This document shows, piece after piece, positions 30,831-63,700 of a stretch of DNA of 64,000 nucleotides. Below the pieces are notes generated by a model. That model made no database searches and had not been told where the DNA came from. It saw only the letters and a list, made by a program, of their open reading frames with translations. The stretch lies in NCBI GenBank assembly GCA_951640195.1, contig OX621173.1, positions 909,780 to 973,779 on the forward strand. The letters run 5' to 3'. Numbering within the stretch: the stretch's first letter is position 1; the number at the start of each line of letters is the position of its first letter. Source of the stretch: Porpolomopsis calyptriformis (Eukaryota; Basidiomycota; Agaricomycetes; Agaricales; Hygrophoraceae). The position numbers were made by a program, and so were the translations under genes.

Positions 30831-32014
30831 ATGTCAGGTCTCACTGCGCCACAAGGGGATTTCATAGCTTTCGGCGTGGAAGGGGTTTTGTATGGTATGT
30901 TTGCTACCCCGTTTGCAGCTCGGGTTCGCCACTTATCATCAACACCGCAGGAATCAATTTTGTGGTGTTCTTGCTTTCGGTTTCTGTTCTTCTCTGGAAC
31001 AGAAATGGAAAGCCTTTCAACTCTCTGATGACTCTCTCGACAATCACACTTTTTACGTTCTGCACCGTTCACTATATATTGGAATTCGAGAATCTTTACC
31101 AAGGTCTGGTGAGCGACCTTTTCTCCCCATACTATCCCGTGGGCTGTGTTCAACGAACGGAATGCTCCTAGATGGTCAAAGGCTTCGACGTGTCGTCCGA
31201 AGATAATGTCCTTAGAGCAGCTGACACCTTGTTCAGTATCACCGATTTCTTGGGACAACTGATTCTTGTACGCAAAATAACCGCTCCTGCCTAATATGGT
31301 CTCACACGTTCCGCCCAGATTTACCGATGTTGGCTTGTCTGGGAGAGGAATTACCTTCCCATCATAATTCCTTCCTTGATGTCGCTGGCTTCTCTCGGTT
31401 TGTTTTAATCATCCCAGGGATTTTTGAATTCTAACCACACTTACTATAGGATGCGCAATGGCTGGCGTCGCTGTTGCGAGTAAAATAGTTGGTCTTACGA
31501 CCACCCCCCCACAGTCACTCATCCCGCTTGGAGATGTCGCCTTTGCATTGCCTCTTGGGATCAATTTCCTCTTGACAACTTTGATCGCGGGCAGAATCTG
31601 GTACATCGCTCGAGGTCTCAAACTTTGGAAAACCCAAAGCCCCATTCGGATCGCCATAGAGGTTATCATCGAATCGGGAGCTTTGATATTCGCCATTCAA
31701 CTCGTTTTTGTCATACTTTTTGGCATCCAAAGCAACGCGCAAAACATTGCGGTTTCCGCGGCTCTTCAGATTTATGTTCGTGTCATTCTCTGGCCTTTAA
31801 CCTCCCAAGCCTCACTGATATCATCATCTAGGGTATTGCGCCTACCTTGATTATCGTCCGAGTGGGGATGGGTCGTTCGATTGAGGCGACCATCGTGACG
31901 AAAGCAACCGATCAGAAATCCTATTCTAATGTACCACCCATGGTATTCGGAGGTCGCCCCCACTCCACCGACTTGGAGGTTGCCACCTATGAATTGAAAA
32001 GCTCATCGCTGTAA
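30831..32014 (+). CDS. 7TM orphan membrane protein (second, unrelated family)
   Basis: Start MSGLTAPQGDFIAFGVEG; a 56-bp intron joins VLYG to INFVVFLLSVSVLLW. Later exons: LMTLSTITLFTFCTVHYILE, MVKGFDVSSEDNV, DTLFSITDFLGQLILIYRCW, ERNYLPIIIPSLMSLASLG, LPLGINFLLTTLIAGRIWYI, IAIEVIIESGALIFAIQLVF, VSAALQIY/GIAPTLIIVRV, then a short tail with DLEVATYELKSSSL before TAA. Seven hydrophobic segments, short loops and a cytoplasmic tail match a very common agaricomycete orphan family with GPCR-like topology but no known function. It is the nearest gene to the UstYa/precursor pair; whether it belongs with it is unknown. Confidence 0.75.
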
Positions 32015-32947
32015 CGACCTCGGTCTTTCTCTTCAATTCTTTTGTCTCCAGGTTATATGTTCTCTGTCCTGTCTTGGGTGATCAATATCACATTGCTTGT
32101 TTGACATATTATGATTACTCTATAGCTTCAATTGACACAAACTGTCAGATTGTTAAATGTATCCGAATCCCTTGCGTATGATTTCTGTAATATAATTCAC
32201 ATTCCCCTTTCGACGTGGCGAACCGAGTGCTGAGAAGTGTGAAGCACACGACTCATGTTAGTCATATATGAATCCTAGCCAGTGCTTTACCAGGACGCCT
32301 GTGCGTAACAAGGGGGTTAAGGTTAGGTGCATCCCTCCTTCAATTTTGGTTCTGAGCCCATGGAATAGACCGAACAACAGCTGTCACTGGAAGCCGTTCA
32401 GTCTATTCCATGGGATAGGAACCAAAATCGAAAAGGGGTTACAGATCCGCAACCTCAAGACCTTCGTTGGCTTTTGAGTTGGGCACAAAACTATCCTTAG
32501 CAACTTCCTGTAAGGCCGAAGACTATTACATAAGAATTCCATTCATGTAATCCGGCAACCTAGAGGCTTCTTACGATTCCTCCATCCAGATGCACACGCC
32601 GCACGTTACCCATTTTCCCAAGGACAACCTCACTACATATAGCTGAGTAAGCTGAGCTCTGGAACTGGGGGGGAAGGCATCTCCGAGACTTGTAGTGATT
32701 GGGATGATCAGCCCTTGATTCACAGAATGTATGTGTCTCCTCCATCAGCTTACACTCCATGGATTCACAGAAATATGATATCGCAAGAACCCCCCCTCGC
32801 GGTGGGATGCTATTTTATGGGTGCCATCATTACGGTTATTCAATCTGATAAATGAAAAGCGCTCAAAGTCAAAATTTCGGTCAAGTAGGACCTATCTGTA
32901 TTTCCTGATGCTATCGTCACTTGTATTCATACTTCATCACATTGCAG
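32015..32947. other. Intergenic region with a long imperfect inverted repeat
   Basis: No gene recognised. A short minus-strand open frame at 32560-32760 has no recognisable motif. The inverted repeat at 32341-32430 is listed separately. Confidence 0.45.
32341..32430. repeat. Imperfect inverted repeat, about 35-bp arms
   Basis: Arms 32341-32375 and 32396-32430 pair at most positions; the core CCCATGGAATAGAC is exact and the outer ATTTTGGTTC also pairs. Spacer is about 20 nt. It lies between convergent gene ends (7TM at 32014 and UstYa at 32948). Confidence 0.75.
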
Positions 32948-33670
32948 TCACGATTCTTTACCTCCGCTTGAGTTCACGGCGGCAATATTCGGTGATTTAT
33001 GCAGGATGCCCGGATGTTCCCCCACAAAGCTCCTTATCTGGGTCCAGTCAAGACACCTGTGAATGCTTCCGTCCCCATATCCTCCCGTGACACTCTGACC
33101 GTCTGGTCCGAATCCCATGATAGAAGACTCGAGCGTAACGTCCGCGTTGCAGAGGATTCCCTGTCGTATCAAGTCGAAGCAATGATCCGAGTGGTGGAAA
33201 GCGGCCATGGCACGATCCGAAGTGACGTTGGCTCCCTTCCGTATCAGCAAATAGGTGAACCGTATGGCGTCCAGACAGTGAAGTTGATGATACATCGATA
33301 ACGCGAACACGCGTTTATTTGGTCCCATCTCCAGCATGCCATTGTATGGTGGCACTACAGAAGCCCATTCTGCGTCGTCGAAGAGATCGTAATGTCCAAC
33401 CGTTTCTGCCAACAATGCCGCGGGTCGAAAGTTTCCATTATTCAATAGTTGCGGAAAGTCCATGTCGACATATGCTAGAGTCAACAGGACAAGTTGGATA
33501 CCTCGAACAGGTCGACATCAGCGACACTCACTGTATTCGTGACCCGTGGGTCGTCTAGCTCGGTTTAAACCAAGTAACTTCTCTGCCGTGTTGAATGCGC
33601 TCAATAGCGTGAGGACGACGAGGATGCTCCACGCGAAGGCGATGGGAGGAGCTACCGATCGACCCTGCAT
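32948..33670 (-). CDS. UstYa-family (DUF3328) oxidase
   Basis: Type-II membrane protein. The start at 33670 (MQGRSVAPP) is followed by one membrane helix, FAWSILVVLTLLSAF; an alternative in-frame ATG lies at 33724. An intron (about 33478-33535) joins GHEY to TYVDMDFPQLLNNG. The lumenal domain has the two diagnostic HxxHC motifs, YHQLHCLD and HHSDHCFD, followed by LCNADVTLE and CLDWTQIRSFV. In ascomycetes UstYa/UstYb-type proteins oxidatively cyclise the core peptides of ustiloxins, phomopsins and asperipin, acting on Kex2-processed precursors. Head to head with the repeat precursor gene at 34071. All His and Cys of both motifs are present. Confidence 0.88.
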
Positions 33671-34070
33671 GCTCTTCGTACGATGTATGAACTGGGAGAC
33701 AATGTGAGTTTGTGCAGGTACCAATTATTTGGGCAACAACCGACGGCGGTTGTCCGGAATATAAATGATCAGCTGAGGATAACCTTCGAGGAAAGGGGTG
33801 GCAATGTCGAGAACCCAAGAAAAATATCACGGCCGAGGATGGCCAGGAATATACCCAAAATTCTCATTCGTTCCCCAAACTCAGCGCCCAACAGCCACAC
33901 GGAGTTTTTTGGGTGGGACCCCACAGGCTTGCGGTGTTCCGAATATTTTCGCCCTTTCACACTCACCGGTTTTACATGGCCGTGTTCTAGTATCAGAGGC
34001 GATGGAAGGCCAAGAAGGCCGCATATAAGAACGAGAATGTGCGTCTCATTAGAGAACCATCACACCATCA
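33671..34070. promoter_or_regulatory. Shared divergent promoter of the UstYa and precursor genes
   Basis: A 400-bp gap between two divergent start codons. On the plus side a TATAA at 34024-34028 lies about 45 bp before the precursor ATG. On the other side an AT-rich ATATAAAT lies at 33759-33766. A shared control region implies co-expression (inference). Confidence 0.5.
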
Positions 34071-35275
34071 ATGACCCCTTTCAAGAGCATCTTCGCGCTG
34101 GTCTGCGTATTTACTTTCTCTCATGCTCGTCCTGTTCCTATAAACTCTATAAGCTCGAATAACGCTGGTCGATGTATGTTGTGCCGTTGATTTTGTGCAA
34201 GGCTGAGAGTAACTCATCTCTGCTGACAGCATTCGAGGAACATTCCATTGCACTACAACGTAGATGGCCACATCCTGACTTCTCTGCTGAGGCCAGATCT
34301 AAGCCCAACGGAACGTGGGTATCTTTTCTGAAAACCAAGTGATTCATCTATTCAGCTTGCACGAAAGGGCGTCCCCGTTTTTCTGGGCGCACAAGGAGTT
34401 GGCATCTGATGATCCCGACTTGCACGAGAGGTATGTGCGTCATCTCAATCCAGCGTCCCGTTCATTGAAAACATCCTCGGGTAGCAGGGAAACGAATCGG
34501 GCGAGACAAGAACGTTCCACAGAAGATATCCCTGAACTAGCAAAGAGGTGTGCGATTCTCCGCAATGCAATACCTATTCACTCAATGTCTTCGGGGAAAA
34601 GGGACAGAAAGGCATTCTGGGCACACACACGTTCTGCGGAAGACATCTCTGATCTGGAAAGGAGGTGTGTAACTCTTCTCAATCCAACATTTCATTCATT
34701 GAATGTTTTCGGGCGAAAGGGAAAAAGATGCAATCTGGAGACACGAACGTTCGGCAGAAGACATCTCTGATCTAGAAAAGAGGTGTGTACTGTAATTCTT
34801 CTCAACGCAACATTTTATTCACTAAATGTTTTCGGGCACAAGGAGCAAAAATCCATTTTGGGCACACCAAGAAAAGAGGTGTGTGACTCTTCACAATGCA
34901 ACATCTTATTCATTAAATGTTTTCGGGCGAAAGGGAAAATGGTGCACTCTGGAGATACGAACGTTCGGCAGAAGACATCTCTGATCTAGAAAAGAGGTGT
35001 GTAATTCTTCTCAACGCAATATTTTATTCACTAAATATTTTCGGGCACAAGGAGCAAAAATCCATTCTGGGCACACCAAGAAAAGAGGTGTGTGATTCTT
35101 CACAATACAAGACCTTATTCATTAAATGTTTCGGGCAAAAGGGACAAAGTGGCATTCTGGGGACACACAGAACCCACCTCTGATCTAGAAAAAAGGTATG
35201 TCACTGCACGACGGTCAGGCGGTCTGTTACACAGTTGAGAGGTCGTTCGGCAGACAGGATAGGCCCGTGATTTGA
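34071..35275 (+). CDS. Secreted multi-core repeat precursor, candidate dikaritin-like RiPP precursor
   Basis: Eleven exons by eye: 34071-34173, 34230-34314, 34368-34430, 34488-34547, 34602-34664, 34720-34782, 34843-34878, 34934-34996, 35052-35087, 35142-35195, 35263-35275. Exon 1 encodes a signal peptide (MTPFKSIFALVCVF..., ending SHA). Exons 3-10 each encode one repeat: a variable start, a core around Trp (FWAH in exons 3, 5, 7, 9; IWRH in 6; LWRY in 8; FWGH in 10), usually an acidic tail RSAEDISDLE, then KR or RR, whose second Arg codon is split by a phase-2 intron. Exon 4 lacks the Trp core (NRARQER). This is the layout of Kex2-processed precursors such as ustA; the adjacent UstYa gene supports a cyclised product. 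No similar protein was recognised. The exon 3 acceptor could instead be at 34355. Exons 1, 2 and 11 are less certain. Confidence 0.75.
34368..35195 (+). repeat. Tandem array of micro-exon/intron cassettes
   Basis: Eight cassettes, each a 36-63 nt exon plus a 54-60 bp intron. Introns share the donor GTGTGTNA, a middle TTCATT(G/A)AATG-like box and the acceptor TTTTCGGGC(A/G)AAAG, so exon and intron were copied together. Long (60-63 nt) and short (36 nt) exons alternate in the second half. Blocks 34720-34933 and 34934-35141 look like a recent two-exon duplication. Confidence 0.85.
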
Positions 35276-60787: not shown

Positions 60788-63700
60788 ATGTTTCGCTCTA
60801 ATAAATCAAAGTTGGATAACAATGCAAGGTCGAAGCGGGCGTGTTCTGCTGCTGTTAATGGCCTGCAAACAACCCTTCGAATAGTCCAACAGGCAACCGG
60901 AGACGCCGGATTGCCCAGACTCCAGACGGGTATAGGTGATCTGCTATTCGTGCTAGATGTGATCAAGGTGGATTGCAACCATTTTTTCTATGTTGACATT
61001 TTCTGATAAGTGATGCAGAAAACATCTCAAAATGTAGAGGATGTAGAGAAACTTTCGGAGCAGATCGAAGGTCTCAACCTATTCCTTGAAAATTCCAAGA
61101 ATGGCGAAACGGTAGCCACTAACCGGATAGATCGTCTGTTCATGTCCGTCATTTTTAAAGTTAATAATCCTCTAGTCTGATCTATGTTTCTATAGCGTGC
61201 CGGATACAGCATTGGAAGAATTACGAAAGATGACTTCCCGCAACGCCATAAAGCGTTTCATTCGCTACTCCGATGATGCACAGTCGATCAGCAATCATAT
61301 CCAGACAATTGCGTGGTCGATCCAAAGTTTTATGGTATGCTTATCGGCTTCGGTACTTCTACCTTTGACTGATATAAATTGGTGTAGGTGGAGACTACAC
61401 TTGCTATCGAATTCGCACTTGACGTTTGTTGATCTCGCACCACCCCGATGGGGTTAATGCTCATGCATTCCCAGGAACATGCCATCAGGATCCAGGACGA
61501 TATCAGGAAACTTAATGAAACCACGACAAGTGGAGTTGAGGTTTGTGTTCATGGTGCACTAATTATTACGACTTGACTACTTAATACCATCCAGAAAATA
61601 ACGACTCGATTATACATGAAAGGTGAAGACTAAGTGGTTGATACGTGATCAAATCACTTAGACATTTTAGAAGGTCGCCCACCATACGCCACCTTTTCTG
61701 CATTCAACTCCAAAGATCGACCACAGTGTTTGAAAGGCACGAGGGTGGAGATTCTCAATCAGATCTTTCACTGGATCAGGCGCGCATTGAAGGGAAAATC
61801 ACGAGTGGCCCATGTTGTCGCGGCGAACATCTGCATATTTTGGATTAACGGATCAGCTGGAACAGGGAAAACCACGATTGCTTATACTGTTGCCGCAGCT
61901 TGCAAAGAACGTGGTGTTCTCGGTGCAAGCTTCTTCTGCTCGCGCGACGATGCAGAATGCAGCAACCCTCGTCTAATATTCACCAGCATTGCCTACCAGC
62001 TCGGAAATTTCAACCGGTCATTCAGAGCCGAGGTTACTCGTGTTATGAAATCAACACCCGGTATCGCCTATGCAAACCCTTTATATCAGCTTGAAGAGCT
62101 TATCGTAAAGCCTATTCGTACGCTTGGGAGCTCATTTTCTCCGTGTGTTGTTGTAGTGGATGCACTGGACGAGTGCAAGGAGACCGGAACGACCTCCGCC
62201 ATCTTATCGTCACTCTCTCTCCATGTCGACGAACGCTTCCCATTGAGGTTTTTGATCACCAGTCGGCTGGAGAGTCATATTACTACGATCTTTCAATCAA
62301 GCAATTTGACGCCCATAACTCGGCCCTGCAATTTGCATGAAGCTGAACTAGTGGTCGTGCAGAGCGATATCAAACATTATCTTTCCTCAAAACTTGCCTC
62401 GACGAGAAAGCTATACCGTATCCAAGACGAATGGCCTTCTGAAGCAGATATCCATTCCCTTACGCTGCTGTCTTCTGCACTTTTCATATATGCATCCACC
62501 TCGGTCAGGTTCATTGAAGATCGAACCTATTCCAACCCCAGAGATCAGCTCGCGCGCCTTTTGTGTCATGCGACCCCTGCGACAGAACCTTCGTCACCCG
62601 ATTATCGCCTTGATCAATTATACACTCAAGTGTTGGATGATGCCTTTCCTACCATATCCCCTGGTCTTTCTGGTTGGCTGAAAAGGATTCTAGGGACTAT
62701 TGTTCTTCTTCAAGATCCGCTCTCTTCATGTGCCATCCAACGATTACTAGGTGTTCAATCAGGAATGGTTAAAAAGACACTGCGTCATCTTCACTCGGTT
62801 ATCATGATGCCAGATGATGATAACAAAATGATTCGAACGCTTCATCCATCCTTCTTCGACTTCATAACAAGCCCAGCTCGATGTCGGAATTCGAAATTCG
62901 TTGTTAACCCTGGAAGCCAGCATACTTTACTTGCGCGTGCCTGTCTAGATGTTATGAAAGGGCTGAAGCGGGATCTGTGCGGAATAAGAAACTCCTCGAT
63001 ACTCAATAACGAAGTGGACGACCTTTCTGCACGGGTCATGACATGCATTCCACTTGAACTGCAGTATGCATGTCGTCACTGGGCTTGGCACTTGTCAAAT
63101 GCGATGTTGTCTGACACTCTCCTTGACCTGTTGAAGGAATTTTGTTTGAAATATCTGCTGTATTGGGTTGAAGCACTAAGTCTAATGGGAGATCTTCGAA
63201 ATGGCCTGCTCGCATTGGATGCCGCTCGACAAGCCATTGGTGTTCGTTAATTTCCCTTTCAGCAATGCGCAAATCTGATCGAGTTTGACAGAAAGCAGGC
63301 AGAGACGTGACTGGCACGATGGATTTACTTCGTGATTGCGAGCGCCTTACCCTTGAATTTTTCCCGATCATCAGTACTTGTTCTCTTCAAGTCTACCACT
63401 CTGCATTACTGTTCACTCCCGAAGAAGCCTTAATTAAGAAGTCGTATAGGAGAGAGTTGGATATTCCAATAACAGTGTCCAATGGATTGGATACTAGCTG
63501 GAGTTTATGCATCCGGACGATAGAAGGACATTTAGGTTTCGTAACATCGGTCACATTTTCCTCCGATGGCACGCGTATCGTTTCTGGATCCGATGACAAT
63601 ACTCTTCGGCTGTGGGACGCCGTCAGCTGTGCACATCTGAACACTTTCAAGGGACATTCCAGCGTCATAAAATCGGTCTCATTTTCTCCTGATGGCACGC

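Follow-up and report, generated by a model that had tools for sequence, protein, structure and literature searches.

A candidate two-gene, dikaritin-like RiPP locus with tryptophan-centred cores in Porpolomopsis calyptriformis

A window of 64,000 nucleotides from contig OX621173.1 of the basidiomycete Porpolomopsis calyptriformis contains a gene of eleven exons (34071-35275, plus strand) whose product carries short tryptophan-containing peptides repeated between dibasic sites. Directly upstream of it, on the opposite strand and head to head, lies a gene of the UstYa/DUF3328 family (32948-33670, minus strand), the two ATGs being 400 bp apart. The two genes most likely form a minimal two-gene, dikaritin-like RiPP system. 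We put the probability that precursor and enzyme act together, with the core being oxidised by a dicopper enzyme, at roughly 0.7; that the oxidation takes the form of a cross-link within the core is a narrower claim, for which the odds are slightly short of even. The evidence consists of the structure of the precursor gene as read from the DNA, the layout of its repeats, the adjacency of the two genes, the intact copper motif of the enzyme, and the opposite substitution patterns of core and follower.

As the preliminary description had maintained, the precursor becomes visible only after splicing: when reconstructed from the sequence, the eleven exons join in frame with GT-AG splice ends into a protein of 223 amino acids, with the stop codon at 35273-35275. 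Exon 1 (34071-34173) bears the start codon and the N-terminus MTPFKSIFALVCVFTFSHA, which by eye has the typical look of a signal peptide, and continues with RPVP; exon 2 (34230-34314) encodes a leader segment, of which residues 45-46 are RR. Exon 3 (34356-34430) contains the first core, FWAH, within ASPFFWAHKELASDDPDLHER and ends in a monobasic ER, and exon 4 (34488-34547) is a repeat with a degenerate core (ETNRARQERSTEDIPELAKR) that lacks Trp and ends in KR. Exons 5 (34602-34664), 6 (34720-34782) and 8 (34934-34996) hold core 2 (FWAH), core 3 (IWRH) and core 5 (LWRY), followed by SAEDISDLERR in the first case and by SAEDISDLEKR in the other two. The 36-nt exons 7 (34843-34878) and 9 (35052-35087) carry cores 4 and 6, both FWAH, within SKNPFWAHQEKR, while core 7, FWGH, belongs to exon 10 (35142-35195; DKVAFWGHTEPTSDLEKR). 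Exon 11 (35242-35275) adds a short tail, SFGRQDRPVI, and the stop. Its acceptor, GAG, is ambiguous, as a nearby CAG would give a protein ending in KS before the stop in place of KRSFGRQDRPVI.

The ten introns, all GT..AG, are 41-60 nt long, introns 4-9 measuring 54, 55, 60, 55, 55 and 54 nt. Exons 3-10 (75, 60, 63, 63, 36, 63, 36 and 54 nt) are each divisible by three and have the same phase at start and end, and at the ends of exons 4-10 the AG/G Arg codon of the Kex2 site is interrupted by the intron (the slash marks the splice junction). Dropping or adding any of exons 4-10 therefore preserves both the reading frame and a dibasic site. Introns 4-9 start with GTGTGY and end with AAG, which would be expected to make them weaker splice sites, and to judge from the sequence some skipping of exons may be possible. 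Retention creates an in-frame stop in only four of the ten introns (1, 2, 6 and 10); introns 3, 4 and 9 each have a length divisible by three and stay open if retained, and introns 5, 7 and 8 are also open but shift the frame, so that the status of these six is derived from the splice consensus and from homology to sister introns, not from stops. A frame on the plus strand (34303-34767) runs open through introns 3 and 4, whose retention would thus yield longer in-frame variants. That both of them are coding was considered and rejected, since intron 4 resembles its sister introns 5-9, from which it differs by 0, 1 or 6 bases in length and with which it shares 74-85% identity and identical splice ends. 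For intron 3, which is 61-67% identical to the sister introns, the non-coding case appears weaker than for intron 4.

The precursor contains eight [KR]R sites (residues 45, 107, 128, 149, 161, 182, 194 and 212) and seven [FIL]-W-x-[HY] cores, FWAH being present four times and IWRH, LWRY and FWGH once each. The chain of Trp-core peptides ending in KR or RR that had been noticed earlier is borne out, with two qualifications: a core is present in seven of the eight repeat exons (3-10), exon 4 being the one without, and exons 4-10 each have a dibasic end, exon 3 a monobasic one. Six core peptides are accordingly bounded by dibasic sites in the predicted protein, and the first, from exon 3, by monobasic sites only. 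Near-identical peptides in tandem with KR/RR between them are the mark of a KEP, and this arrangement gives good support to the earlier idea of a multi-core precursor processed by Kex2. In every one of the seven cores, position Trp+2 is occupied by His or Tyr (the latter once), and the residue just ahead of Trp is Phe, Ile or Leu.

The two halves of the best-matched repeats have changed in opposite ways. In a codon alignment of exons 5, 6 and 8 (three pairs), the core halves (DRKAFWAHTR, EKDAIWRHER and ENGALWRYER) give pN 0.34 and pS 0.02, and the follower halves (SAEDISDLER/K) pN 0.03 and pS 0.30. Expressed as differences over the three pairs, this is about 24.7 amino-acid-altering against 0.3 silent in the core half and 2 against 6 in the follower half, counts that are small and come from mutually non-independent pairs. 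Exons 6 and 8 differ from each other at 4 of 63 bases, all protein-altering and all within the core half. The introns after these two exons agree in 53 of the 55 bases that align, one of them being 5 nt longer; those before them agree in 49 of 55, and because they differ at the other 6, exons 6 and 8 are not unusually fast-evolving overall. The opposite patterns support the reading frame, and suggest that the cores are variable and the follower tail is a conserved, putative recognition segment. They point one way: the follower seems to be held, and the core around its fixed Trp seems free to vary or driven to vary. A held follower with a varying core is what one would expect to see in a RiPP precursor in which one segment serves for recognition.

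The neighbouring gene has two exons and encodes 221 amino acids with a Pfam match to PF11807 (E 6.3e-22). Exon 1 (33532-33670) supplies the N-terminus with a hydrophobic segment that looks TM-like by eye; exon 2 (32948-33474, stop codon 32948-32950) contains the DUF3328 domain, in which the HxxHC(x)nHxxHC copper motif is intact as HQLHC and HSDHC. The exon-2 piece (174 aa) was modelled with AlphaFold at low confidence (pLDDT 46.5), and the model places the HxxHC motifs on helices 57-80 and 86-109. A protein search returned four relatives. Two, labelled jgi as source, share 75% identity with the query across 70-71% of its length, and the others 41% and 38%; both HxxHC motifs are kept in all four, P0001 and P0002 included. 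Among viral contigs, 46 pattern stretches yielded no confirmed relative, and no match was found among solved structures at E<=1. The divergent intergenic region of 400 bp between both start codons (33671-34070) is likely a promoter common to the two genes.

The HxxHC(x)nHxxHC motif is reported to bind two coppers and to be required for the activity of CctR, a dioxygen-dependent dicopper enzyme of the DUF3328 family, of which ApnU and AprY are two further copper- and dioxygen-dependent members (PMC12435403); the family as such has been called dicopper (PMC12186524). The KEP route described for Agaricomycetes comprises a signal peptide, Kex2, Kex1 and secretion (PMC9769878). The precursor, if expressed, would enter the secretory pathway and be cleaved by Kex2 after KR/RR into short peptides that contain the [FIL]-W-x-[HY] core. 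The UstYa-family enzyme, which by prediction is a dicopper oxidase anchored to the membrane in the secretory lumen, would bind the conserved acidic follower (SAEDISDLE) as its recognition element and oxidise the core. The likeliest outcome would be a side-chain cross-link within F/I/L-Trp-x-His/Tyr, with 2 H lost per bond; the proposed bond would join side chains of these core residues, and Trp itself may take part in it. Cyclisation of the Trp/His cores, as put forward in the preliminary description, is plausible. Trp alone does not predict modification, since the share of KEPs with W is no higher where a DUF3328 gene is adjacent (20.5%) than where there is none (24.5%; PMC7329392). For the predicted Kex2/Kex1 products the computed [M+H]+ values are 1243.585 for SKNPFWAHQE (1241.570 after loss of 2 H), 1831.850 for DKVAFWGHTEPTSDLE (1829.834), 2299.095 for EKDAIWRHERSAEDISDLE (2297.079) and 2253.042 for ENGALWRYERSAEDISDLE (2251.026).

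The enzyme might also alter the core without cyclising it, by hydroxylation, dehydrogenation or halogenation, a possible though rather unlikely course that agrees with the proposed system in everything except the bond. DUF3328 enzymes are reported to carry out hydroxylation (CctR) and halogenation besides cyclisation (PMC12435403), but the retention of His or Tyr at Trp+2 in every core suits a cross-link, without proving one.

Family and protein searches of the 33.5-Mb genome found one further UstYa gene, at C3:508816-509250, with 41% identity; a total of two is a lower bound, as six-frame searching may miss intron-split copies. This second gene (L003:1345-1800, plus strand; 263 aa, frame otherwise open) reads HQFRC and RADPC, having lost three of the four motif histidines and kept one, and is possibly a pseudo-enzyme. 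By eye, it is close to an orotidine decarboxylase-like gene. A repeat scan detected no KEP beside it, and a scan of 19 kb around it for at least three dibasic-spaced segments gave six frames, of which none was repetitive by eye. On motif evidence, the gene at 32948-33670 is the only intact family member found in the genome. A P_proprotein domain (Kex2-type) was matched once elsewhere in the genome. For Pleurotus, 16 UstYa-like genes have been reported (PMC8893723).

That this sole motif-intact UstYa gene sits 400 bp from the precursor, head to head, supports the reading of the two as a pair, as does an eleven-exon model that is in frame with exons 3-10 divisible by three; the simplest reading is that the substrate of the enzyme is the adjacent precursor. 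The same position, along with a Trp that is invariant in seven cores while neighbouring residues change, speaks against an unmodified KEP whose secreted peptides stay linear and act in signalling or defence or in a pheromone-like way, next to an enzyme with another substrate. We hold this to be improbable, even though the KEP peptides detected in four Agaricomycetes are reported to be linear or minimally modified (PMC9769878) and a DUF3328 gene is near only 103 of 1680 Basidiomycota KEPs (PMC7329392). A search with PF08015, the CaaX pheromone family of basidiomycetes, was uninformative, as neither the family nor the control matched anything.

Seven [FIL]W.[HY] motifs were reached in none of 20000 residue shuffles of the precursor, the maximum being two. 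The longest chain of in-frame AG/G..AG/GT microexons with a dibasic end is seven on the plus strand of the window and one on the minus strand, and in 60 simulated windows (order-1 Markov, one strand each) it was one in 50 and zero in 10, by a criterion defined after the gene had been seen. Genome-wide, the pattern of two successive microexon units has four matches, all inside the precursor gene, and its reversed version three; since chance matches evidently occur, a single match says little and the weight lies on the four found together. No precursor homologue was found with the full protein at E<=1 (3480 word-sharing protein candidates) or with an 87-aa repeat piece at E<=10 (1091 candidates). 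Searches of the genome for further copies of the precursor found none elsewhere, the single match by DNA being the gene itself and the nine by protein all lying inside it. A decaying or chance repeat without an expressed gene is very improbable, for although a core is lost in exon 4 and homologues are absent among the proteins searched, every repeat is in frame, the follower-half changes are in the main silent, and the chain of seven microexons compares with at most one in the simulated windows.

The locus shares with the dikaritins (ustiloxin, phomopsin, asperipin-2a and victorin), which have a signal peptide, a start that resembles one by eye, multiple cores between dibasic Kex2 sites and a DUF3328/UstYa gene clustered with the precursor; asperipin-2a, too, has a single DUF3328 gene (PMC7329392). 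It differs from them in its invariant Trp, rare Tyr, one core per microexon and basidiomycete host, and no further tailoring gene was recognised directly beside the pair. Precursors of the ustiloxin/phomopsin type have an EDYxI-like core (PMC6339444), and the core sequences led to the rejection of membership in that type: the cores here read [FIL]W.[HY], and an EDYxI-like core with N-terminal Tyr is absent. The label dikaritin-like, given before the neighbouring UstYa gene had been remarked upon, is strongly helped by that gene, but does not extend to the ustiloxin type proper.

Of all KEP genes, 22% have a DUF3328 gene nearby, and the distribution of these DUF3328 genes peaks at the adjacent position (PMC7329392, Umemura 2020). 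As Basidiomycota KEPs, including those near DUF3328 genes, are described there with the same precursor layout, a KEP next to a DUF3328 gene in this phylum is an already known kind, of which the present locus is a variant, set apart by its Trp-x-His/Tyr core, its single-enzyme pair and its one core per microexon. KEP type P-3 of that study (W with P; seven KEPs, four with DUF3328; Galerina, Psilocybe, Coprinellus and two ascomycete genera; PMC7329392), compared here by its description, may include the gene of this locus, which the study may itself already list without comment. The epichloecyclins (gigA) likewise arise from imperfect Kex2-bounded repeats that give several variant peptides, with an N-terminal aliphatic residue and an internal aromatic one, but their linkage is Tyr-Ile (PMC9233826), whereas the cores here are Trp-centred. 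Plant burpitides, moroidin and its relatives, are made on ribosomal cores by dicopper four-His BURP cyclases, whose four-His plane is like that of DUF3328 (PMC12435403). BURP cyclases belong to another protein family than the UstYa-matching enzyme, and the likeness is in chemistry only. Moroidin has a Trp-His bond.

The window was surveyed by scanning 40 entries (some overlapping, from a subset of frames and short exons) against Pfam; no tyrosinase was found among them, and no methyltransferase or protease was seen directly beside the pair. A frame with a methyltransferase domain is found about 12 kb from the pair, at 47.5-48.0 kb. An MFS-like match below the cut-off (25.6-26.1 kb), a WD40 match (37.8-38.8 kb) and an RRM gene with a sub-cut-off MLLE match (40.9-43.5 kb), which we read as poly(A)-binding-like, are housekeeping or unrelated neighbours. 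A hydrophobic multi-pass protein at 31428-31847 (plus strand), convergent with the UstYa gene, has no Pfam match and has the look of an Agaricomycete protein. Downstream of the UstYa stop, an inverted repeat (32328-32443) has 48-nt arms, 79% complementary, and a 20-nt loop; no further copy was found in the genome. At 61649-63247 (plus strand) a large open frame encodes an NLR-like STAND protein with an NPHP3_N/NACHT-type NTPase domain (E 1.4e-26). The basidiomycete origin given in the preliminary description fits the genome, with 15 DUF6533 and 3 DUF6534 matches above the cut-off, both of these being Agaricomycete-type families; taken with the shortness of the introns, they point to an Agaricomycete.

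Searches of the open-access literature in PMC brought up no basidiomycete dikaritin that is both cyclic and characterised, and Umemura 2020 considered it possible that KEPs are hardly ever cyclised in Basidiomycota (PMC7329392). The locus makes this question testable, since a single precursor stands beside a single intact enzyme, core and follower are sharply delimited, and the masses to expect have been computed. The build of one core per microexon is a possible route to fast peptide diversification. A bolder and doubtful proposal is that a DUF3328 dicopper enzyme here builds Trp-centred cross-links, from Trp either to the His/Tyr two residues on or to the beta-carbon of the preceding Phe/Ile/Leu, and is served by a cassette gene of frame-neutral core microexons with the Kex2 site AAG AG/G astride the splice junction. 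Were it true, the system would be a fungal parallel to the plant Trp-His burpitides, and exon duplication or skipping would exchange cores with frame and processing unharmed.
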